Source: Phytoactinopolyspora halophila (GTDB lineage: Bacteria > Actinomycetota > Actinomycetes > Jiangellales > Jiangellaceae). Taken from it: 40,752 nt of DNA. Numbering within the stretch: position 1 is the stretch's first letter; every line of letters begins with the position of its first letter. Below the pieces are notes generated by a model, which saw only the letters and a program-made list of their open reading frames with translations, searched no databases and was not told the DNA's origin. The stretch covers positions 1-40,752 of the forward strand of contig NZ_QMIG01000042.1 in assembly GCF_003287285.1 (NCBI RefSeq). Direction: 5' to 3'. Shown here in pieces: positions 67-11,954 of the stretch. The position numbers and the translations under genes were made by a program.

Positions 67-706
67 GTGCTCCCCGCGCACGCGGGGATGATCCGAGCTC
101 GATGGTCCGCCTAAGAGCAGAAAAAGCGTGCTCCCCGCGCACGCGGGGATGATCCATCGCGATTTGTGGCAGCCAACACGCGGATCCAGTGCTCCCCGCG
201 CACGCGGGGATGATCCGCATGGTTTGTCGAAATCTGAATATGGCATGTGGTGCTCCCCGCGCACGCGGGGATGATCCGCACCGGGACCGCAAGCACACCT
301 ATATGCGCACGTGCTCCCCGCGCACGCGGGGATGATCCTCCCAGCGAGGGGTGGGGGAGAAGCAGGCTGCCGTGCTCCCCGCGCACGCGGGGGTGATCCC
401 ACTTTCCCCTGCGGTCACAGGCACATCCCGCAGTGCTCCCCGCGCGCGCGGGGGTGATCCCATGACGGTGCGGCAGGACCTCCACTTCGACGAGTGCTCC
501 CCGCGCACGCGGGGGTGATCCGTCGACCAGGTTCCCCGCCGTCACGCACAGCCCGTGCTCCCCGCGCACGCGGGGGTGATGGAAGCGGATAGCGCGCTTT
601 ATTGGGACGATCGCCGTGCTCCCCGCGCACGCGGGGGTGATCCGACGGAAGATCCCGCTATCGCGCCTGGTCGGCACCGTGCTTCCTGCGCACGCGGGAG
701 TAGTGC
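67..706 (+). CRISPR. CRISPR array 1, type I-E, 11 repeats / 10 spacers
   Basis: Repeats of 28 nt (GTGCTCCCCGCG, central CA, then CGCGGGGATGATCC) start at 67, 128, 189, 250, 311, 372, 433, 494, 555, 616 and 679. Spacers are 33 nt, except the last, which is 35 nt. The palindromic CCCCGCG/CGCGGGG core and the 3' handle ATGATCC are those of type I-E repeats read left to right, so transcription is on the + strand and the leader side is left. The first five repeats are identical. From 372 onward the repeat has GGGGGTGATCC instead of GGGGATGATCC. The repeat at 433 has CGCGCGCG in the centre, the one at 555 ends GATGG, and the one at 679 is strongly degenerate (GTGCTTCCTGCG, ending GTAGTGC). This is the expected decay at the leader-distal end. 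Confidence 0.97.
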
Positions 707-756
707 GCGCGTGTGTTGCCCGCGCTGACGCCAGATGTAAATGCGCGACTAAGAGC

Positions 757-1587: not shown

Positions 1588-2268
1588 TCACCAGGATCGA
1601 TGCGGAGGTGCCAAGGTCACCAGGCCACAGCCATATGATTTCGCCGGACCAATGCCAGCACAGAGAGCCTCCACGAACGCCGACGGATCTGTAATAACCA
1701 GGTGCCCGTCGAAGCGCACGGGATCTACTGTCACCTTGTTATGCCGCCCGTTCCCCTGGTAACCGGTGAGGCGAGGACATGGCGATGGCGCCAGGTCCGG
1801 GCGGGCGTCGGCACCCGTGGGTATGGTGAATCCGTTCTGCGTACCACGGTTCACGAGCCAGCTGATCTGCTCCTCGGGATCTTTGAGTGAGTATCGCGTA
1901 TCGGCTCGGCGCTTCTCGCCGGGCTCTGGCTTTCTGCGACGCGTCGGATTCGCTATGAGCCGGAAGGACAGAACTCGCCCTGACTTTAGGGTGTCGAACG
2001 TAGTGCTGAGCTCACGTACGTCAGCGGGTCGTTTGAGATATTGGTCGAAGCCGTCCCAGTTGGGTTGAGTGCGACTTTGCACGTAGAGCGTGTACCCCAC
2101 GTTTCCGTGGTCCAGCCGCCAGAGCACGCCATGCTGCTCACGGGTGGCGCTGCCCTCCGGAAGCTCCGGGAATCCAGACATGATGGTGCGGTGCATCTGG
2201 TGAATATCAGCGTAATCGCGCCGGAACGCGTGCGCCGTCGTGTCGGGAATGAGTCTGCTCAAATACAC
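1588..2268 (-). CDS. cas6e: Cas6e (CasE/Cse3) crRNA-processing endoribonuclease
   Basis: This 226-aa protein belongs to the Cas6e family, which cuts the pre-crRNA at the base of the repeat hairpin and stays bound to the crRNA 3' stem-loop as the head of Cascade. The N-terminus MYLSRLIPD is typical. The motif DIHQMHRTIMSGFP carries the expected catalytic histidine; His26 matches the position used in the Thermus homologue. The C-terminal glycine-rich loop GIGPAKSYGCGLVTLAP (about 205-221) is the conserved RNA-binding signature of the Cas6 superfamily. Its start overlaps the end of cas5e by 10 nt. It is the last gene of the Cascade operon; cas1 and cas2, which usually follow, are missing. Confidence 0.95.
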   Translation of the reverse strand: MYLSRLIPDTTAHAFRRDYADIHQMHRTIMSGFPELPEGSATREQHGVLWRLDHGNVGYTLYVQSRTQPNWDGFDQYLKRPADVRELSTTFDTLKSGRVLSFRLIANPTRRRKPEPGEKRRADTRYSLKDPEEQISWLVNRGTQNGFTIPTGADARPDLAPSPCPRLTGYQGNGRHNKVTVDPVRFDGHLVITDPSAFVEALCAGIGPAKSYGCGLVTLAPPHRSW

Positions 2269-3002
2269 GACTGTTCTCCCGCGATCATCGACTCGGTCAG
2301 TACGACCTCACCACGACACACCGACCGGGTGTAGAAGCGCCGGTCACGGCTACGGAACGATACTGGCACATCGTGTCGTGGCTCGGCTCTCGCATCCGTC
2401 GGCCGACCGTCGACGAGAGTGCGTAGCCGACGGGCATTGCCGTCACGTAGATCTCGGACTGCCTTATCGCACTCCTTCTTGCTGTTCTCCAGCCACACAT
2501 GCGACTCGAGCACTCCCTCGACGCGTCCCTCCGCCACGCCGAGATACGAGTCATCCGGTGACGGCCCGACGAGCGGGCGCGCAGGCACGAATGCCTTCCG
2601 TCCTAGGTAGACGGGCCAGTGCGGTTGGTTCAGCGCCGCATGTATTCGGAACAACGTGTCATGATGCTCTGACTGGACAGCGACGAGGAACAACGCATCA
2701 GCAAGATAATAGCGGTGACTGACCACAGTGCGGTGATTCTTACCTTCCGTGTTCGGCACGTTCGAGACCGTGTGGTAATCGCGTTCCAGAAGACCTTCAC
2801 GATCGACGCGAACGCCAATCTCCAATTGGGCCAGGGCCTGAATCTTCTCGTCGTCGTCCCGGTCTATGCCGAGTGCGGCAGCAACCACCCCGACGACACC
2901 GGACTTGGTCGGTTCACGCGCCGTGTCCCTGCTCGTGAATCGAGAACGGACACCCCACGACTGCATCGGAGCATCCAGGCATAGCGCAAGTGTGTAAGGC
3001 AT
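2259..3002 (-). CDS. cas5e: Cas5e (CasD) Cascade subunit
   Basis: Cas5e caps the 5' handle of the crRNA in Cascade. The start chosen is ATG at 3002, which gives 247 aa beginning MPYTLALCLDAPMQSWGVRS, the canonical Cas5e opening. Translation further upstream (to 3239) is antisense to cas7e and not family-like. The next conserved block, FTSRDTAREPTKSGVVGVVA with AAALG following, is present. The start lies 2 nt after the cas7e stop (TGA-CG-ATG), so the two are translationally coupled. Length is normal for the family. Confidence 0.95.
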   Translation of the reverse strand: MPYTLALCLDAPMQSWGVRSRFTSRDTAREPTKSGVVGVVAAALGIDRDDDEKIQALAQLEIGVRVDREGLLERDYHTVSNVPNTEGKNHRTVVSHRYYLADALFLVAVQSEHHDTLFRIHAALNQPHWPVYLGRKAFVPARPLVGPSPDDSYLGVAEGRVEGVLESHVWLENSKKECDKAVRDLRDGNARRLRTLVDGRPTDARAEPRHDVPVSFRSRDRRFYTRSVCRGEVVLTESMIAGEQSCI

Positions 3003-3004
3003 CG

Positions 3005-4150
3005 TCACGACAGAGCCGAGGTCAGCAGCCGATGACGGAAGTCGTCCAGCGTCAACGCGGTCTCGCTGTCCGACAGAGGAGCGGTGTCGGCACTGATCGA
3101 CGCACCGACGACCTCGCGGAGCTCGTCGGTGCCGTAAAACTCGCGCAGCTTCTGGAAATGCGACATCAGGTTCGTGGTGGAAGTCCGCATGATGTCGCTG
3201 CCCGTGACCGGACGCAGGAAGGCATTGGCCAAATTCCAAGCTCCACGTTCACGTACTGTCCCGAGCAGAGTCTCCGGCATCGTGCGCGCAGCCGTAGTCG
3301 TCTGCTTACCACTGGGCGTGGCATGGACAAATGCCGAGAGCCACGCTCCAGCTGCTTGAGCGACGAGCTCGTCGTCGCCCTTGAGGTTGTTCGCGAGCTG
3401 ACTCAGATCCACGTTGGCATAGCGGTAGTAACAGGCGGCGTTGAAGTCGATCGTGCCGATCATGTCCGCACCCTGCTCATCGTCACGCTTCAGATCATCA
3501 ACGGCGGTGTAGTAGTCGAACTCGGTTGCCACGGCGTGCGTCGATATCGCATGAGCCACCTGGGACGCAGCATCGACGTTGAAGTCCGTGTTGTCTGCGA
3601 TCATCCGTCCGAACAGCGCGATATCTGCGGCACGACTCGCGTCGAAGATTCGTTGAGCTTCGGCGGCGGTCTCCTTCTCCGGTTTCACCTTAGAGATCTT
3701 GGTAGCCGCGTCGTCGGTCTTCTTCTCTTTCTTCTTCGCCTCCTCAATACCGGCTGCCAGAGCGTCCCAGTTGTCGTCGCAGAAATCGGTGAGCAGGGTC
3801 ACCGCGTCGCGACCGACAAACAGCAGATACTGGGTTAGCCGATTCCTTTCCACCCCAAACCCAAGTGAATGCAACCCAGCAGCAACGATTTCCTGTGCGG
3901 TCTCGGAGTCTCGGCCCCGCTCTACAAGAAGCTCACTTGCCGCTGTGACCAGGCGTTTCGTACGAGTCCCGACATTCTCGTCATCCAGGCCATAGCTGGT
4001 GAACAGCTGACGAGCTGAACGCTTCAGGCACTGACTGGAAATTCGACCACGCGGCACGCCACCAAATGTCACACTCTTGGGCTGACCAAGATCGTCTCGA
4101 TTCAAGTTACTCGCTGGGAACGACTGCAGCAGGTGTAATTCGATGATCAC
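3005..4150 (-). CDS. cas7e: Cas7e (CasC/Cse4) Cascade backbone subunit
   Basis: Six copies of Cas7e form the helical backbone that holds the crRNA spacer in type I-E Cascade. The 381-aa protein begins MIIELHLLQSFPASNLNRDD, followed by GQPKSVTFGGVPRGRISSQC and LKRSARQLF, the diagnostic Cas7e N-terminus. Near residues 140-165 a lysine-rich insert (EEAKKKEKKTDDAATKISKV) lies in a region of variable length. The start overlaps the cse2 stop in an ATGA arrangement, so expression is probably coupled to cse2. Confidence 0.96.
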   Translation of the reverse strand: MIIELHLLQSFPASNLNRDDLGQPKSVTFGGVPRGRISSQCLKRSARQLFTSYGLDDENVGTRTKRLVTAASELLVERGRDSETAQEIVAAGLHSLGFGVERNRLTQYLLFVGRDAVTLLTDFCDDNWDALAAGIEEAKKKEKKTDDAATKISKVKPEKETAAEAQRIFDASRAADIALFGRMIADNTDFNVDAASQVAHAISTHAVATEFDYYTAVDDLKRDDEQGADMIGTIDFNAACYYRYANVDLSQLANNLKGDDELVAQAAGAWLSAFVHATPSGKQTTTAARTMPETLLGTVRERGAWNLANAFLRPVTGSDIMRTSTTNLMSHFQKLREFYGTDELREVVGASISADTAPLSDSETALTLDDFRHRLLTSALS

Positions 4151-4764
4151 GTGGCGCTCTCCTGTAGTTGCTCGGCAACAGAGGTTTCGTTTGTGTCGTA
4201 GGTGGTGTTGCTTTCCCGATCAGGACGGTGGAACTGTCTCGCCCACCTCATCCGAACGTCGCTGGCACGCTCGTCATCGGCGTTAAGAAGGACGAGGAGA
4301 TCTCGCAGCAAATGGTGGAAGTTGACCGGTAGCTCGTGGGCGTCGAGCATCTGCAAGCTCGCCCGCACGTCTTGGGAAAGTCGATCGGTGTCGGCCGTGA
4401 GAAGCTGCTGCATACGCCGTTGCGCTGACGAAGCGTATTTGCCGTCGTTCACCTTGGCAAGTTTTCCTAACGCTGCACACAACGGTAGCCGCGACTTGCC
4501 CGGATGTGGTCGAGGATTGAGCGCATACAGTCCGGCGACCATGAGCCAAACCCTTTGTTCCTTTTCTGGCGGGTCATGGCGAAATACCAGTTCATACGCT
4601 CCGTGCTCGTACCGATCCGCGACCGCGACCCGCCGGAGTTGAGCAAGCGTCTTGCGTGCGTGCGCCACTTGATGCCGTTGATCCGACGACAAGTCTTTCC
4701 CCAGTTGATACAGGCCCTCAACCAGTCGGTGTCGTCTCTCGACCAGGGTGAGTTCACCCATCAA
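4147..4764 (-). CDS. cse2: Cse2 (CasB, Cas11e) Cascade small subunit
   Basis: Cse2 forms the dimeric 'belly' of type I-E Cascade and stabilises the displaced DNA strand of the R-loop. The 205-aa protein is helical and charged, with the ARKTLAQLRR, LYALNPRP and LCAALGKLA blocks, and ends near INFHHL-like motifs (PVNFHHLLRDLLVLLNADD) typical of the family. It overlaps cse1 upstream and cas7e downstream, each by 4 nt in an ATGA junction. Identification rests on these motifs together with its conserved position between cse1 and cas7e. Confidence 0.93.
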   Translation of the reverse strand: MMGELTLVERRHRLVEGLYQLGKDLSSDQRHQVAHARKTLAQLRRVAVADRYEHGAYELVFRHDPPEKEQRVWLMVAGLYALNPRPHPGKSRLPLCAALGKLAKVNDGKYASSAQRRMQQLLTADTDRLSQDVRASLQMLDAHELPVNFHHLLRDLLVLLNADDERASDVRMRWARQFHRPDRESNTTYDTNETSVAEQLQESAT

Positions 4765-6419
4765 ACCCCCTCGTAAGGCAAGATAGATTTCATCTTGTCG
4801 TCGAAATCGTCACACAGGCCATGCAGGCGACCCCGAAACCACTCGTAATGCTTGGCCACGGCGTCTAGCTGTCGTACCCGACGTTGCTGAACGGCCACTG
4901 CCCACCGATCAACAGCAACTGAAGCGACGTTTCGAACCGTATCCTTCCATTCGAGCACCAACGGCTCCCGGGATGACGCGTTCAGCGCGGCATAACCAAG
5001 ATTGCTCAGGAATTTGTCGAACTCTGGGGCGAGCCGTGGCCAATAGTCCTGCTCGAGACCGACGTTGTATGGCGCATTGCGCTTCTCTCTTGCCGAATGC
5101 TGTGCGCTTAACGATTCACGCCACCGGTCGACCAACTTTTTGATGGCCTGACCGACGTCGTCTGCCAGTTCCACACAAATCCCGATCAGGGCACCGTTGG
5201 CCCAGCTATCCGTCTCGACCGCTGCATGCTCCGAGTCGCTATATACCTTCTCCGCCCGCAGCAATGCGGCCGGCGCCGGGAGCTGTTCCTGCAGCCAGGT
5301 CTGCACCGATCCGCCGCCCGAGTCGTCGAGCTGCTGACCGAAGACGCGTATCGTGAATACCTCGTTCGTGGGCAGGAATCCATCGGCCAGGCGATCTGCT
5401 ACGTGGTTGAGCACATGCGGCCGGATATGACCAAAGTCATCTTCCGGGATCAACATTTCCCGGGCATGTCGCCAGATACCCCGCAGCCTGTGCAGCTGAA
5501 TCGGTTGCCATTGGCGCTGCTCATCACTACTACGCCTGCTGCGCCTCTCAGGCTGGTGGAAGGCTGCCATCTTCTCAACCCAGTGAAGCTGCTCTTCCAT
5601 AGCATCGCCCGGCGTGATCACAGCACCGTCAACTGTCGCGCCATCCTCATCGGACGTCCGATGTAGTAGTACTCGCCGCGATTGCCAGGTCAAGACATCC
5701 AGCCAGCCCTTTGTCACTCGCTTCTCGGGCTCCGGCGACGGAGGCTCAGCTTCCCATGAAGGACGATCTGCGGAGGACGTGTGCTTTGGTTCGTTCGCAT
5801 CGGGTTCATGGAGCACAAGGTTGAGCAACAACGTCTCTTTGAGAGTGTCGCCTTCGACCACCACCGTCCCAAAATTGTTGCATGGCGCCCGCTGCGACTG
5901 TTTCACCTTTGTGAACGGGGTCTTGAGCCCGCCGGGATCGTATGCCTGTACCGTAACCAGCCACCGCGCGGCTTCGGCCGCGCTGAGAACGAGGCGTTCT
6001 CCGGCGGTCGTCTGGTCGAACAGCGTCGCATTGTTGCCAACGGCCCGGAAATGTACGAGCTGAGCGGCTGACCGTGCCTGCAGGTCGGCCAGGGCAGGGC
6101 ATTGGAAGAAAGGCCGTTCGTCGTCGAACAGGTCAAAGGCACGGGCATGATCATCGAAGTAGGCGTCAATCCGATCTTCGGGAAGCGACTCCGCTGACCA
6201 CAACCGGCGCCATTCGTGTCTATTGCGAGGCCCTTCAACGACTCGATGCAACACCGCGATCAACAGCCGATGCAGTGCTGCCGTGACCGGTGGCGCCTCC
6301 GCGTCTACCCACCGCAACTGATGCGCTCGCCGCAGCACGTCTCGTAGTCCGAGCTCCAGCGCATGGCCATCGCAATCGACGACCGGCACCCACGGCTGCT
6401 CGGTAAGCCGGTAGCTCAA
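4761..6419 (-). CDS. cse1: Cse1 (CasA, Cas8e) Cascade large subunit
   Basis: Cse1 recognises the PAM and recruits Cas3. I place the start at TTG 6419, behind AGGGGGG, which gives 552 aa beginning MSYRLTEQPWVPVVDCDG and matches the usual Cas8e N-terminus. The open frame extends back to an ATG at 6524, but those 35 codons run through the pseudo-repeat/pseudo-spacer element and are not family-like. Typical Cse1 sequence follows: LRDVLRRAHQLRW, TAALHRLLIAVLHR, FDLFDDERPFFQ, and a helical C-terminal bundle. It is the first gene of the Cascade operon. A 5' leader of roughly 165 nt, counted from the predicted promoter at 6593-6622, contains the crRNA-like element. Confidence 0.94.
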   Translation of the reverse strand: MSYRLTEQPWVPVVDCDGHALELGLRDVLRRAHQLRWVDAEAPPVTAALHRLLIAVLHRVVEGPRNRHEWRRLWSAESLPEDRIDAYFDDHARAFDLFDDERPFFQCPALADLQARSAAQLVHFRAVGNNATLFDQTTAGERLVLSAAEAARWLVTVQAYDPGGLKTPFTKVKQSQRAPCNNFGTVVVEGDTLKETLLLNLVLHEPDANEPKHTSSADRPSWEAEPPSPEPEKRVTKGWLDVLTWQSRRVLLHRTSDEDGATVDGAVITPGDAMEEQLHWVEKMAAFHQPERRSRRSSDEQRQWQPIQLHRLRGIWRHAREMLIPEDDFGHIRPHVLNHVADRLADGFLPTNEVFTIRVFGQQLDDSGGGSVQTWLQEQLPAPAALLRAEKVYSDSEHAAVETDSWANGALIGICVELADDVGQAIKKLVDRWRESLSAQHSAREKRNAPYNVGLEQDYWPRLAPEFDKFLSNLGYAALNASSREPLVLEWKDTVRNVASVAVDRWAVAVQQRRVRQLDAVAKHYEWFRGRLHGLCDDFDDKMKSILPYEGV

Positions 6420-6461
6420 CGTCCCCCCTCTACACGATCGAGGGATCAAGATATCCGTTCC

Positions 6462-6505
6462 ATCGCGATGAGCCAACACCCCCGCTGACGCGGGGAGATC
6501 GCGAT
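6462..6505 (-). repeat. ATCGCGAT inverted repeat enclosing pseudo-repeat 2
   Basis: The self-complementary octamer ATCGCGAT occurs at 6462-6469 and again at 6498-6505, on either side of the pseudo-repeat hairpin in the cse1 leader. In RNA the two copies can pair and extend the GCGGGG hairpin into a long stem. In DNA they could be a regulator's half sites. Either role is inference; the sequence symmetry is exact. Confidence 0.55.
6473..6500 (-). repeat. Pseudo-repeat 2 (degenerate I-E CRISPR repeat in cse1 leader)
   Basis: On the minus strand this 28-nt segment aligns without gaps to the array repeat at 19 of 28 positions. It keeps CTCCCCGCG and GCGGGG, hence an intact CCCCGC/GCGGGG hairpin with loop GTCA. 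It has lost the 3' handle, reading GTGTTGG where the array has ATGATCC or GTGATCC. It is in the same sense as the cas operon transcript. As the 3' end of a crRNA-like RNA only the hairpin is needed, and that is the part preserved. Confidence 0.85.
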
Positions 6506-6532
6506 AAGTGCATATCCGCCACACCTATACGC

Positions 6533-6559
6533 GGATCACCTCCCTGAACCGGGAGACAC
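6533..6559 (-). repeat. Pseudo-repeat 1 (degenerate I-E CRISPR repeat in cse1 leader)
   Basis: On the minus strand this 27-nt segment begins GTG and ends GGTGATCC, the latter identical to the 3' end of the array 1 variant repeats. Between them the hairpin arms have changed to CTCCC/GGGAG around a 6-nt loop. The part that would become the crRNA 5' handle (GTGATCC followed by G) is perfectly preserved, while the stem is shorter than in the arrays. This complements pseudo-repeat 2, where the hairpin is kept and the handle is lost. Confidence 0.8.
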
Positions 6560-6569
6560 CATCAGCATA

Positions 6570-6603
6570 CACGCCGCGAATGGCGAGCAACACCTATACG
6601 CTT
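6570..6603 (-). promoter_or_regulatory. Predicted target of the pseudo-spacer: AAG PAM plus 12-nt seed match
   Basis: Reading the minus strand from 6603, AAG is followed by CGTATAGGTGT, which is the start of the pseudo-spacer (G at 6601 through T at 6590, 12 contiguous matches). The next base mismatches, the two after it match, and only those 2 of the remaining 20 positions agree. AAG is a strong PAM for the best-studied type I-E system. If the G is counted as the last base of the handle, as in Escherichia coli, the first mismatch falls at position 12, a flipped-out position that does not need to pair. The site covers the predicted -10 box and start point of the cas operon. Confidence 0.75.
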
Positions 6604-6622
6604 GGTTCTGTGGTACTGTCAG
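6593..6622 (-). promoter_or_regulatory. Predicted promoter of the Cascade operon
   Basis: On the minus strand, CTGACA (6622-6617) lies 18 nt before TATAGG (6598-6593), a reasonable sigma-70-like pair, giving a start near 6586 and a leader of about 165 nt before the TTG of cse1. The -35 lies in a palindrome GTCAG-CA-CTGAC at 6618-6629, which could bind a regulator. A separate promoter here is expected because the gene immediately upstream (6662-6808) is on the other strand, so cse1 cannot simply be read through from cas3. Promoter calls by eye in high-GC DNA are uncertain. Confidence 0.5.
6611..6619 (+). promoter_or_regulatory. Extended -10 element upstream of the small membrane-peptide ORF
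   Basis: TGG-TACTGT on the + strand fits an extended -10 (TGN TAnnnT) and would start transcription near 6626, about 36 nt before the TTG at 6662. There is no good -35. The region where a -35 would lie (about 6588-6596) is inside the pseudo-spacer target site, so Cascade bound there could block both divergent promoters. Confidence 0.35.
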
Positions 6623-6661
6623 CACTGACGAGCACGAGCCGCAATGTCCCGGGGGGAAATA

Positions 6662-6808
6662 TTGTTTAAAGATCGGCGCAGTAGATGGTCGGACAGACAC
6701 CTTCCGGCGTTCCGCCTGTCGGTCACCGCCGAGGTGTCTCTCGTCATGTGGATCTTCCTGTTCCTCGTCGTCGGACTCGTGGCATGGGGGCTCCTGGGGG
6801 CAACGTGA
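6662..6808 (+). CDS. Small single-TM membrane peptide in the cas locus
   Basis: This 48-aa open frame starts at TTG 6662, preceded 2 nt earlier by a strong GGGGGGAAA ribosome-binding site. The N-terminal half is basic (FKDRRSRWSDRHLPAFRLS) and the C-terminal half is a single hydrophobic helix (VMWIFLFLVVGLVAWGLLG). It is convergent with the Cas3 C-terminal-domain gene (ends 21 nt apart) and divergent from cse1, so it occupies the cas3-cse1 intergenic region alone. I recognise no family. Its size and composition are like small membrane peptides, including type I toxin peptides, but toxicity is speculation. A shorter form from ATG 6746 (20 aa) is possible. It may not be translated at all. Confidence 0.45.
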   Translation: MFKDRRSRWSDRHLPAFRLSVTAEVSLVMWIFLFLVVGLVAWGLLGAT

Positions 6809-6829
6809 CACTCGCCCTGCTTACATAGC

Positions 6830-7204
6830 CTAGGTCTCGGTTTCCCATATACGCAGGCCGAACACAGGGTGATATTCGAGTCTGACGGCGTCGATGGATG
6901 CACCGTCGTCGTCGAGTACGAGCCGCCGATAGTCGTACAGCCACCCAGACTGAGAAAACGGTCGGGGTACCGGAAGCCCTTCCAGTGCTCGGTAGGCATC
7001 AATATCAATGTCTACCGGGCACGTCAGGTGGACAGCTGAACGCAGGGCGGCGTCGATCTCGCCAGCTGTCAGTTCGTTCTCTTCGGTCAGATCCAGCGCA
7101 ACTCCTTCTAACGTGCGCGGATGCGGCGAATCGGAGCGCAGGATGACGACATCGATATGCCGCTCCAGCTCGACACTCTCTTCGGAGTCGTCTGGCACAG
7201 TCAT
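6830..7204 (-). CDS. Probable detached C-terminal domain of Cas3
   Basis: This 124-aa protein starts in an ATGA overlap with the stop codon of cas3. From memory of full-length actinobacterial Cas3 proteins, its layout (IDVVILR near the start, an ALRSAVHLT strand, then FSQSGWLYDYRRLVLD and LEYHPVFGLRI at the end) resembles the small accessory C-terminal domain that follows the helicase domains. The 821-aa cas3 product ends before such a domain. I therefore read it as a Cas3 split into two translationally coupled chains. The alternative is an unrelated hypothetical protein. The split could be natural or the result of a mutation near 7201-7240, where the cas3 frame ends in a low-complexity RRDRRDRRDGS tail. 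Confidence 0.55.
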   Translation of the reverse strand: MTVPDDSEESVELERHIDVVILRSDSPHPRTLEGVALDLTEENELTAGEIDAALRSAVHLTCPVDIDIDAYRALEGLPVPRPFSQSGWLYDYRRLVLDDDGASIDAVRLEYHPVFGLRIWETET

Positions 7205-9666
7205 GATCCATCCCGTCGGTCGCGACGGTCGCGGCGAGTGCGGCCGGGGTTCATCGGTTGTTCCGTAAGGCGCGTTATGGAGTCGTCACACCGTAGCGGT
7301 GGAATGTAATAGTGTCGCGCATACGCTTCGTCACGTTCCTGCTGCTTGCTATAAGTCTTCGCGGCTTGATCGAAGCGACGCTCCAGCCCTTCCGGCGCCG
7401 GCTTCGAAGCGACGTAGACGTCATGCACCAGCTTCGACGTCTGGCTCGGAAGCCGCAGCGACGACACGTCACGCAGCTCTTGCCAGGTACGTAGCAATGG
7501 TTCGTGCGGATAGACGACATGAAGTCCTCGTGGAAACGAGGGGCCGTTCTTACCAATAGGTGGTTCAAGTAACCCCAGAGTTGGGACCTGACAACCCCGA
7601 ACTTCGGGTGGGCGATGGTGCCGATGCACTCGGCCCACCCGCTGGATCAGCACGTCTATCGGACACAGGTCGCTGACTAGCAGGTCGAAGTCGATGTCGA
7701 GGCTGTGCTCCAGGATTTGTGTTCCGACGACGATAGCGTGGGGGCGTTGCTCTGAGGTCTCGCCAAAACTCTCTCGAAGCCACCGTTCGATGTCTGTGCG
7801 CTGGCCCTCTGAGGTCATGCGGGTCAAGTAGACGAGTGTCGGCGGCTTCTCCCAATCGGCTATCGCCTGCTCAATCCTCGTGTACATATCCTCGACACGA
7901 CCGACGAGGTTACAGATGACCAGGGCACATCCGCCCTGCCCAATCCGTTTCTCGAGCCACGTGGTCAACTCGTCGTCTGCCAAGTGATCAACTTCCACCT
8001 CGCGATCAGCGTTGACATCCGAAATCGCAATCGGCCGGGAAACGGGCTCGCCGACCGTGCCGGCCCACGTCACTTGCCAACCGCCAGGTACCTGAACCCG
8101 AGAAGCCTCGACCTCATTGGGTAACAGCCTCTGGCTCCCCGCCTTCCACTGAGCAATCAGCTCTGCGCGACGATCTGCTGGAAGCGTTGCCGAGAGCAAG
8201 ATCACCGGGATCCCGAGTCGACCGCACCACCACATAAGGCGGTACAGCAGAGTCGAACTGTAAGTGTCGAGTGCATGGACCTCGTCGACCAGGAGGACCT
8301 TGCTCGACAATCCGGCCAAGCGAACGTACACATGGCGCGACATGATGCTCGCCTGAAGTGACTGGTCCCAGGTGCCGATACCAACCGGGAACAGCAGGCC
8401 ACGCCGACGGGTGAAGAACTCCTTCTCCACATGCATGGGTGCATCGTCGTCCAGGCCAACCTCCGACGGGTCGAGCCGAGCATCGTCGAGCTCCTTCACA
8501 GCCGTGCTGTAGACGAGCTTGGGCGAGTACTCCATCCCCAGGTCATGCGCGGCGTCGCTCAGCTCGCTATGCATGCCGTTGGCCGTGGCCCGCGTTGGCA
8601 ACGCAATGTATCCACCGGAGAGGTCGAGACGGCGCACCAGCGTGGCCATGGCCTGCACTCCCGCTTTGGTCTTGCCCTCCCCGGTTGGCGCTTCGATCAC
8701 GAGCACCCCTGCGGAGTCCTGCTCGGCGACCAACGACTCGACAGCCAGATGCAAGGGCCGCGGGTCGTGGATGGCTGGAAAGAGTTGCCTGAACCTTGTG
8801 TCCTCCGGTGGCCTCCACTTCCGCCAGCGCAACCTCCGACCCACAACATCCTGGGCCTTCTCACGTGCAGACTCCCGATACGCTTCCAGATCATCTACGG
8901 GGAATCCGGCGTAGGGGAACTTTGTGTCATCCGACGCGATCCAGTCTGATACCGAAGTCAGCGCGATCAGACCCACTGCTGCCGTCGCAACATCCAGCGA
9001 CGTCTCGGCCCAGTTAGCTTCGGCCGGCTCGCCCAACGACCACAGTTGTATGAGAGCGGTGACCAAGTCATCTCGCCATTGGTCCCATCGGTGCCCGCCA
9101 TAGTGTCCACGTCTATCTTTCGCTGCGAGATACTTGTCAGACGCGATCAAGTTGCCGTGATGACCACCGATCCCGTGTGCGATCGCCGCTGTGACGTCAG
9201 CTGTGGCTCCCCATCGGCGCAGGGCATCACGGAAATAGACAGTAGTGAAATCCCCGTGCTTGATATCAACACGTCCCTTTTGCGCAGCAGAGACGAGTCT
9301 CTCCAACTCGCCTTTCACCTGGTCGCCGAACGAGGCGACGGCAAGATCCAACCGTTTCGCCTGAAAGACTGGGCTGCATTTACCCAGGTCATGAAGGCCA
9401 CATAGCACAGCCACCCAGGACGGAACGTGCCCCAGTGGGCCAAGTCCCGTTTCAAGCTCACGGCGCATGGTCGGACCCAAATATACGTCGTAGAGCTGCT
9501 CCGCCACCGCCACAGTATCGATCATGTGACACACCAGCGGATGCGGCACTGACCCGCTCCCGGCCTTACCCCAGGCTGCTGTGACGGGAACGCTGACAAC
9601 AACCTCCGACAGAGATCCCACCCCCTGCGCAACGTTCACCGAATCCGGAGGCCAACTTACGGCCAT
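7201..9666 (-). CDS. cas3: Cas3 HD nuclease-helicase (type I-E)
   Basis: Cas3 is recruited by Cascade and unwinds and degrades target DNA. The 821-aa product has an N-terminal HD nuclease domain (His42/His47 in HPLVCHMID, LCGLHDLGK with His92-Asp93, then HGIGGHHG). It also has a superfamily 2 helicase: Walker A IEAPTGEGKTKAGVQ, Walker B LLVDEVHALDTYSS, motif III LLSATLP, and motifs V-VI GTQILEHSLDIDFDLLVSDL and DVLIQRVGRVHRHHR. The final residues (NPGRTRRDRRDRRDGS) are low-complexity, and the accessory C-terminal domain seems to be encoded separately at 6830-7204. The gene diverges from CRISPR array 2 and is separated from cse1 by a gene on the opposite strand. Confidence 0.96.
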   Translation of the reverse strand: MAVSWPPDSVNVAQGVGSLSEVVVSVPVTAAWGKAGSGSVPHPLVCHMIDTVAVAEQLYDVYLGPTMRRELETGLGPLGHVPSWVAVLCGLHDLGKCSPVFQAKRLDLAVASFGDQVKGELERLVSAAQKGRVDIKHGDFTTVYFRDALRRWGATADVTAAIAHGIGGHHGNLIASDKYLAAKDRRGHYGGHRWDQWRDDLVTALIQLWSLGEPAEANWAETSLDVATAAVGLIALTSVSDWIASDDTKFPYAGFPVDDLEAYRESAREKAQDVVGRRLRWRKWRPPEDTRFRQLFPAIHDPRPLHLAVESLVAEQDSAGVLVIEAPTGEGKTKAGVQAMATLVRRLDLSGGYIALPTRATANGMHSELSDAAHDLGMEYSPKLVYSTAVKELDDARLDPSEVGLDDDAPMHVEKEFFTRRRGLLFPVGIGTWDQSLQASIMSRHVYVRLAGLSSKVLLVDEVHALDTYSSTLLYRLMWWCGRLGIPVILLSATLPADRRAELIAQWKAGSQRLLPNEVEASRVQVPGGWQVTWAGTVGEPVSRPIAISDVNADREVEVDHLADDELTTWLEKRIGQGGCALVICNLVGRVEDMYTRIEQAIADWEKPPTLVYLTRMTSEGQRTDIERWLRESFGETSEQRPHAIVVGTQILEHSLDIDFDLLVSDLCPIDVLIQRVGRVHRHHRPPEVRGCQVPTLGLLEPPIGKNGPSFPRGLHVVYPHEPLLRTWQELRDVSSLRLPSQTSKLVHDVYVASKPAPEGLERRFDQAAKTYSKQQERDEAYARHYYIPPLRCDDSITRLTEQPMNPGRTRRDRRDRRDGS

Positions 9667-9840: not shown

Positions 9841-11517
9841 GTGCTCCCCGCGCACGCGGGGATGATCCGGACCGGCAGTCCTGCTCCTGACGGCCGACGC
9901 CGTGCTCCCCGCGCACGCGGGGATGATCCGCGTCCAACGAGCGTCCAAGTATCGTCCAATCGGTGCTCCCCGCGCACGCGGGGATGATCCGATCACCCCT
10001 CAATAGATCCACCCCTGAACTGGGTGCTCCCCGCGCACGCGGGGATGATCCGACCTCGATGCCGGCGGCCGCCTCGTCGAGCCCGTGCTCCCCGCGCACG
10101 CGGGGATGATCCGGTCCCGACCATTGCTGACATCTCCGCCCCAACGTGCTCCCCGCGCACGCGGGGATGATCCGGATCTGAAGAAGCTCGACCGGGAGCT
10201 ACCCAAGTGCTCCCCGCGCACGCGGGGATGATCCACCGGCCTGGTCCTGGAGGTTCGCCAGCGCCTCGTGCTCCCCGCGCACGCGGGGATGATCCCAGCA
10301 AGGCCGCGAAGCTGCTGACCGCCGTCGAGTGCTCCCCGCGCACGCGGGGATGATCCGCGGGCGGGATTGCCACGAGGCAGCCAGCCCGGGTGCTCCCCGC
10401 GCACGCGGGGATGATCCCTCGTCCGAGCGCTGAACATCCACGCCATACAGGTGCTCCCCGCGCACGCGGGGATGATCCCGAGAAGGCCCACGCCAAGATC
10501 ATCAATCTGGAGTGCTCCCCGCGCACGCGGGGATGATCCTGTGCGTACCGGGACTGGCGCGCGCCCGCGTGCGTGCTCCCCGCGCACGCGGGGATGATCC
10601 ACAGCGTCGAATTGGTTCCCTCGCCGCCTGTCAGTGCTCCCCGCGCACGCGGGGATGATCCTGTTGAACCGAACGCGGTTCAGCGTGGCCAGCCGTGCTC
10701 CCCGCGCACGCGGGGATGATCCGGCGGCTGGTGGAGGTGGTCGCGTGAGGGGCATGTGCTCCCCGCGCACGCGGGGATGATCCGAGGAGATGGTCGAGTC
10801 ATATGCGCAGGAGAGAGTGCTCCCCGCGCACGCGGGGATGATCCCGCGGACGCTTAGATGACAGTAAGCCACACCGGCGTGCTCCCCGCGCACGCGGGGA
10901 TGATCCCACCACTGGGGAGGATGCATGATCCAGGATGAGGTGCTCCCCGCGCACGCGGGGATGATCCTTTGACACGATCTGTCGAATCACTTCTGCTGAT
11001 GTGCTCCCCGCGCACGCGGGGATGATCCATGTCGGTCAACGTCCGCATGTGCATAAAACGCGTGCTCCCCGCGCACGCGGGGATGATCCCCTCAGCCGTG
11101 CCGTCGCGAAATCGGGTCCGGGAGTGCTCCCCGCGCACGCGGGGATGATCCTCCCGTAAACTAACATCTAGATCTCTTGCCCGGGTGCTCCCCGCGCACG
11201 CGGGGATGATCCTGTTGTTTTGCCCTGGCCAGTCGGACCGATCAGGTGCTCCCCGCGCACGCGGGGATGATCCTTCAACGTCGCCTGAACCATTAAAATC
11301 ATATACGTGCTCCCCGCGCACGCGGGGATGATCCGACTGAAATCCCGCTGTCCTCATAGTTTTGGCCGTGCTCCCCGCGCACGCGGGGATGATCCGTGAC
11401 GTGGGGTAGGGGCGGTCGAGCAGCATGTGTGCTCCCCGCGCACGCGGGGATGATCCCTCGGACATGATCATCACCTGTAGACCTCTCGTGTGCTCCCCGC
11501 GCACGCGGGGATGATCC
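9841..11517 (+). CRISPR. CRISPR array 2, type I-E, 28 repeats / 27 spacers
   Basis: Twenty-eight 28-nt repeats begin at 9841 and recur every 61 nt, with two 34-nt spacers (after the repeats at 10817 and 11062); the last repeat is 11490-11517. As far as I can read, all copies are identical: GTGCTCCCCGCG, CA, then CGCGGGGATGATCC. The first five repeats of array 1 have the same sequence. The orientation is + with the leader at left (9667-9840). No degenerate terminal repeat is visible, so the trailer end is either recent or truncated. Spacers often start with G. The uniformity suggests the array has been maintained or recently acquired, although no adaptation genes are in the window. Confidence 0.98.
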
Positions 11518-11954
11518 GCCTACGCGAGTGCTTCTCGCCAGAGATGGGTCCGTGTGGAGTTTAGGTTGAGGGGTGTGCGGGAAAGAGGTCGCCATAGTGG
11601 CCTGAATTCCACGCAGGCGCTGCGAAACACCACATCGATCATGAACCAGCGTGTCCGCGACAACCGCCGGGCGCCCCCGATTCCCGGCACACACGGGAAT
11701 CGATCATCCAGGACGCATTACACGAGGTGCTCCTCTACACGACCCCGCTGGATGGAACGAGGCCGGTGGGGCAGAGCGCTAGATATGCGAAGGTCCGGTG
11801 CCGTCCGTAGCTGGACAGACGACGCCGGACCAACACAAGCTCGAATGATGCAGTACCGGGCGACCCTTGAGGGTCGTTGGAGCAGATCCGACCGCTTCCG
11901 CCCCACGTCCCGCCGCATGCTCGCCACGGCAGGACCCGTCAGCGATATGCAGTA
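11518..11954. other. 437-nt stretch without a convincing gene
   Basis: Between array 2 and the IscA-like gene I see no complete gene. One + strand frame near 11695-11805 reads SIIQDALHEVLLYTTPLDG and then RPVGQSARYAKVRCRP before a stop. It looks more protein-like than its surroundings and could be a gene remnant, but I cannot name a family. Other frames are low-complexity arginine-rich shadows. Confidence 0.4.

Follow-up and report, generated by a model that had tools for sequence, protein, structure and literature searches.

The type I-E cas locus of the window, i.e., the whole stretch of 40,752 nucleotides from Phytoactinopolyspora halophila analysed here (contig NZ_QMIG01000042.1), contains ahead of cse1 a one-spacer mini-CRISPR that is very probably a type I-E CreR, by which Cascade would repress its own cse1-cse2-cas7-cas5-cas6e operon, and a prophage of the same genome contains a guide fitting the same site. 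Together with similar cases in other viral contigs, the sequence comparisons tilt slightly towards phages or phage-like elements carrying CreR mimics, i.e., guides that would make the host Cascade silence the cas operon at the site of the host's own self-repression. The element ahead of cse1 by itself adds a member to the known CreR class; the prophage guide is the weightier of the two, its copy of the guide being the less expected and new part.

The mini-CRISPR ahead of cse1 and its target site

The cas locus is organised as follows:

67-709, plus strand: canonical I-E array, with a degenerate last repeat
1588-4764, minus strand: cse2, cas7, cas5 and cas6e, downstream of cse1
4761-6419, minus strand: cse1 (Cas8e), with a putative TTG start at 6419 behind GAGGGGGGA; the open reading frame opens at 6524
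6473-6500, minus strand: second degenerate repeat of the mini-CRISPR, GATCTCCCCGCGTCAGCGGGGGTGTTGG, 19/28 identical to the array repeat, with a hairpin
6501-6532, minus strand: guide (spacer) of 32 nt, read from the sequence, beginning GCGTATAGGTGTGGCGG
6533-6560, minus strand: first degenerate repeat of the mini-CRISPR, GGTGTCTCCCGGTTCAGGGAGGTGATCC, which would supply the 5' handle of the guide; weak hairpin
6569-6600, minus strand: target protospacer, matched by guide positions 1-11 and 13-14
6593-6622, minus strand: weak promoter-like pair, CTGACA (6622-6617) and TATAGG (6598-6593), at 18-nt spacing, 9/12, within or adjoining the target
6601-6603, minus strand: AAG PAM of the target, from sequence and genome pattern search
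6830-9666, minus strand: cas3, read in two frames that overlap: 7201-9666 with HD and helicase, 6830-7204 with the C-terminal domain
9841-11520, plus strand: canonical I-E array on the upstream side of cas3, with an approximate end

The repeat of the arrays reads GTGCTCCCCGCGCACGCGGGGATGATCC. Alignments of cse1 homologues start in most rows at residue 31-37 of the open reading frame, the two overlapping frames of cas3 correspond to a frameshift or a split gene, and none of the ten proteins of the window that were tested proved to be Cas1 or Cas2. Between cas3 and cse1, the plus strand also exhibits a hydrophobic open reading frame of 20 amino acids (6746-6808), MWIFLFLVVGLVAWGLLGAT, with a GAGGTG motif recognised by eye upstream. 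In the left array, a spacer at 278-310 (family D9) has TATAGGTGTG (reverse strand) in common with the guide of the mini-CRISPR, perhaps by chance or perhaps because the spacer stems from an element in which a guide of this kind resides. Contig C7 harbours another I-E locus, recognised by a Cse1 of 32% identity and by arrays whose core repeat is also that of the window arrays, and the effector complexes of the two loci may share guides; at C7, a cas3-sized frame overlaps the cse1 frame, leaving no space there for a mini-CRISPR ahead of cse1.

The two degenerate type I-E repeats around a 32-nt pseudo-spacer, which the sequence-only reading had placed in the cse1 leader, were borne out at the base level, i.e., a mini-CRISPR with repeat-like flanks sits beside cas genes. 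The hairpin of the second repeat has a z of -2.72, equalled by three of 200 shuffles, and that of the strongly degenerate first repeat a z of only -1.53, equalled by 18 of 200. The first 12 nt of the spacer were likewise correctly reported to recur at 6601-6590, where AA stands ahead and gives the PAM AAG, this being the single further copy in the window. Searched throughout the 5.04-Mb genome, AAGCGTATAGGTG, i.e., AAG plus ten seed bases with at most one mismatch, occurred once, as did the reversed pattern taken as a control.

With the G after the 28-nt repeat counted as the PAM-derived base, guide and target match at positions 1-11 and 13-14, mismatch at 12 and match nowhere beyond 14. The earlier count of two matches among the 20 bases past position 12 is right in number, but these are not scattered: they are positions 13-14 and as such directly lengthen the seed past the flipped-out position. 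At the level of the seed (1-5, 7-11), the guide is hence complementary to a site with a PAM, of which the promoter status is tentative. As to TATAGG, previously predicted to be the -10 of the operon, the weak CTGACA-N18-TATAGG pair stands at 9/12, but a consensus promoter scan of 6380-6900 found no promoter; the promoter is as such the weak point in the CreR assignment of this element.

In Escherichia coli type I-E, 5 bp are enough for Cascade binding, interference needs more than 18 bp and the base at each sixth position flips out (PMC5904413). In a haloarchaeal Cre system, function drops ~10,000-fold whichever of positions 1-5 and 7-11 is altered, and positions 6 and 12 can be changed, being dispensable for repression (PMC8501985). 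Pairing at 1-11 and 13-14 fits both the experimentally needed positions and the I-E binding rules. Some caution is nonetheless called for, since off-target binding of Cascade by the seed alone left transcription unchanged in E. coli (PMC5904413), and pairing alone thus does not imply repression.

The guide could conceivably be the antitoxin of a CreTA-type module silencing a small toxic gene, e.g., the short hydrophobic frame at 6746-6808, which lies nearby and has its GAGGTG motif; given that the target is located more than 140 bp upstream of this frame, within the sense promoter region of cse1, and that the scan of 6380-6900 found no promoter for the frame, such a module appears extremely unlikely. 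The suggestion of the sequence-only reading that the small plus-strand gene might be repressed as well found no support. For a CreR, the transcription, processing, loading, binding and repression that we infer would proceed as follows. Cas6 would cut both degenerate repeats and release a guide of ~60 nt (about 6539-6480), which would load into Cascade and pair via positions 1-5, 7-11 and 13-14 with the AAG site in the promoter region of the operon; this pairing would be sufficient for the binding of Cascade and insufficient for cutting by Cas3, and Cascade would repress its own synthesis until competing crRNAs or a Cascade inhibitor relieved the repression. As the guide has the same orientation as the operon, guide and Cascade may share one transcript.

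Recurrence of guide and site in related type I-E loci

The 5' side of I-E loci was screened in two sets taken from among the Cse1 matches listed, namely (i) 60 I-E loci of the same class, which with the window and C7 make 62, and (ii) an additional 40 loci of the genus to which genome G198 belongs, presumably Streptomyces, under unchanged criteria. A match required guide positions 1-5 and 7-10, located after a repeat-like hairpin and outside dense arrays, to recur within 450 bp beside AA; as a control of register, offsets 24-59 were compared, offset 29 being that of the window element. In the first set, offset 29 gave 14 matches in 14 of the 62 loci, offset 27 gave 11 rows (eight from the tandem locus L143, two from L118 and L127 in a shifted register and one other), and every remaining offset gave 0-5 rows. 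In the second set, seven loci matched at offset 29 and 0-2 at each of the 35 other offsets. Looser guide-target screens, one with at least 1,382 rows and others swamped by array repeats, were superseded by this offset-controlled test.

Altogether, 21 of the 102 loci matched, i.e., 20 distinct loci once L149, a near-duplicate of L144, is set aside. Position 11, which was unused in the search, matches in 19 of these 20 and position 13 in 12, and positions 6 and 12 match in five and four, respectively, which is near chance. The seed sequence varies from locus to locus together with its AA-PAM site (20/102), including in L117, a locus of the window's own family with a different seed and mismatches at 6 and 12 within it. 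Such co-variation is what the sequence-only reading had proposed as a check, and the locus-specific pairs in 20 distinct I-E loci support its proposal that Cascade represses its own synthesis. The spacers of the 21 loci measure 32-34 nt in eight cases, 21-22 nt in seven and 14, 15 or 26 nt in three, and in the three remaining loci no second repeat was found. In L144, L149, L154 and L161, the CreR-like element has a first-repeat stem CCCAGCC...GCTGGG instead of CCCCGC...GCGGGG. Across 392 genomes of its genus, the guide of G198 was found in G198 and G569 only, the site in G569 having no repeat ahead.

No match by this criterion appeared in 81 of the 102 loci, including that of the nearest Cse1 homologue (43% identity). 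Regarding close relatives, the genus is represented by one genome, searches of the family and order returned, besides the window itself, Cse1 at 27-32% identity, and two contig scans for related loci gave none and one locus, respectively.

The missing counterparts, along with a first repeat so degenerate that its hairpin is not unusual, would suit a decayed remnant of an ordinary array with a seed repeated by chance and no regulation. A remnant of this kind is highly improbable in view of the AAG-preceded match being unique in the genome, of the 20 loci sharing register and pairing pattern under a clean offset control and of a second guide in the same genome fitting the same site. Alternatively, the repeats could act in the mRNA, where binding or cutting of the cse1 leader by Cas6 would tune the stability of the messenger or its translation, leaving the seed match a secondary role; they do lie in the sense leader, ~54 nt ahead of the inferred cse1 start. 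This possibility, which is very unlikely, leaves the guide-target match unexplained, and 13 of the 21 guides in the screen are antisense to cse1. The assignment to CreR is therefore based on the layout, the unique site, the Cre-type pairing and the reappearance of such pairs, with seeds that co-vary, in 20 loci. With 20 of 102 loci under a strict criterion, the screen further points to frequent use of RNA-guided self-repression among these I-E systems.

Guides in a prophage and in other viral contigs

Two stray repeats on contig C13 surfaced in a search of the genome for its own repeats and belong to a mini-array on the minus strand (C13:84058-83920) in which three repeats enclose spacers of 34 and 21 nt, the former beginning GCGTATGGGTGTCGC. 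The mini-array sits between endolysin and phage integrase genes, with a major head protein gene ~8 kb away. IMG/VR lists the region as UViG_2831851512_000001, of which 13,756 bp are 100% identical to C13, both probably representing the same strain. The first guide matches the cas target of the host at 1-5, 7-11 and 13-14, i.e., at 12/12 pairing positions beside the AAG, and differs at 6 and 12, which are the two non-pairing seed positions; as such, it is a guide fitting the host CreR target, as expected of a phage CreR mimic. No other copy of the seed was found in C13:53000-92790, nor another AAG-preceded near-copy in the genome. The likeliest role of the prophage element would be to use the host's switch to keep cas expression down, the benefit to the phage being conjectural.

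I-E repeats were found by scanning in 38 viral contigs, the C13 region included, and L100 and L105 were left out of the guide set for their longer arrays and, in L100, also cas genes; in a search with ten Cas proteins, cas genes were found only in L100, outside the guide set. Guides of only 20-21 nt account for 25 of 92. Mini-arrays with periods of ~49-50 nt (21-22-nt spacers) occur in L078, L081, L085, L088, L095, L101, L104, L111, L113 and plasmid L217, and some of these elements hold two or more similar guide variants. Of 32 plasmid records, ten were inspected and five of these examined for repeats: four have ordinary arrays, and the mini-array of L217 gave no match at 11/12 or better.

Against cas loci generally, the 89 distinct viral guides are not enriched (105 matches vs. 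111 and 111 in two controls). The 12/12 class, with eight rows vs. 0, 0, 1, 1 and 0 in five controls, is the sole class standing out, next to 15 rows vs. 11, 11, 11, 8 and 17 for 11/12 and 85 rows vs. 116, 93, 116, 91 and 73 for 10/12; five of the eight rows stem from a single guide that matches the same cas3 site across different genomes. The 12/12 row of L099 on L211 was not counted as it overlaps repeat-like sequence. Separately, in L091 (IMGVR_UViG_2895989556_000001, ~1164-1218), a contig with tail genes, a mini-array guide matches the DEAH-box coding region of cas3 at 23/26 bases with AAC in two genomes and at seed level in further genomes.

Against the CreR targets themselves (19 sites after L149 and L181 were dropped), four pairs reach at least 11 of the 12 pairing positions, while shuffled guides average 0.0085, four pairs were not attained in any of 2,000 shuffles and a five-base shift of the guides left no pair. 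The pairs are the C13 prophage on its host (12) and, against the target of genome G515 (locus L182), L081 (12), L088 (11) and L111 (11). Since the prophage match had been noticed beforehand, the blind part of the test is the L182 group, and since L081 and L088 are clearly related, the pairs amount to two or three independent events. The guide of G515 and that of L081 agree at 18 of 21 bases, and a similar repeat follows each. The evidence for the viral status of these contigs is mixed: all are in IMG/VR, L111 has phage-family matches, L088 has ParB and RNA-ligase matches and is similar, over a small part (9%) of the query, to a Streptomyces plasmid of 154 kb, and the one protein tested in L081 gave no match. 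The elements other than C13 are best called phage or phage-like plasmid.

For the prophage element only, its RNA could instead serve as a Racr-like decoy or be directed at a different virus, in which case the match to the cas target would be incidental. Both Racrs and mini-arrays of one virus against another are established, the viral guide set lacks enrichment for extended cas-locus matches (105 vs. 111 and 111), and none of the 104 parsed host spacers, a subset given the 162 repeat matches counted in the genome, matches C13:53000-92790 over more than 18 nt, so that no self-targeting calls for an inhibitor. Neither prophage spacer had a significant match among 50,697 phage records, one 23-nt match in the second-spacer region having an E of 0.04; other viral contigs were covered with a seed pattern. 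The 12/12 pairing beside AAG at a genome-unique site, a seed with no other copy in C13:53000-92790 and four guide-target pairs at 11/12 or better vs. 0.0085 expected speak against this account, which is possible though rather doubtful. The mimicry of CreR finds its support in two sets, namely this genome with its prophage, and G515 (L182) with L081, L088 and L111. If true, it would constitute an RNA anti-CRISPR working through guided transcriptional silencing rather than as a decoy: the phage would feed extra guides into the loop as a counter-defence, leaving Cascade intact but scarce. It would also account for viral contigs having mini-arrays with guides of 20-21 nt (25/92).

Relation to known RNA-guided systems

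The primary paper on CreR reportedly appeared in Cell Host and Microbe in 2023. CreR RNAs repress cas genes of types I-B, I-E and V-A via partial complementarity to the promoter and respond to the crRNA load and to anti-CRISPRs (PMC12737573, PMC13131331, PMC12948488). Like the window element, CreR is a guide derived from a mini-CRISPR with limited complementarity to a cas promoter; CreR is described as repressing cas genes, which is predicted from sequence for the window element, and the available review descriptions of CreR hold no counterpart to the prophage copy. The abstract of a 2024 review of CRISPR in mobile elements names complete systems, solitary repeats and mini-arrays directed at related viruses, and the review never uses the word CreR (PMC11656645). 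In a literature collection largely devoid of subscription papers and preprints, no paper on phage-borne CreR mimics was found by title or abstract start.

CreA, of the CreTA system in type I-B haloarchaea, shares with the window element two degenerate repeats, one spacer and pairing at 1-5 and 7-11 with 6 and 12 free, but represses a toxin RNA gene, whereas the window element targets a site before cse1, where no toxin was identified. Racrs are, like the prophage element, phage-borne RNAs derived from repeats and aimed at the effector of the host (PMC10651486). They consist of solitary repeats forming aberrant complexes, whereas the prophage guide would work through its spacer and the element is no solitary repeat without array, having three repeats and two spacers; the Racr survey excluded arrays and mini-arrays (PMC10651486). 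Inter-virus mini-arrays resemble the prophage element in being mini-arrays in a virus that use the host effector (PMC11656645), but they target related viruses, whereas the prophage guide fits the cas site of its host, with complementarity at seed level only.
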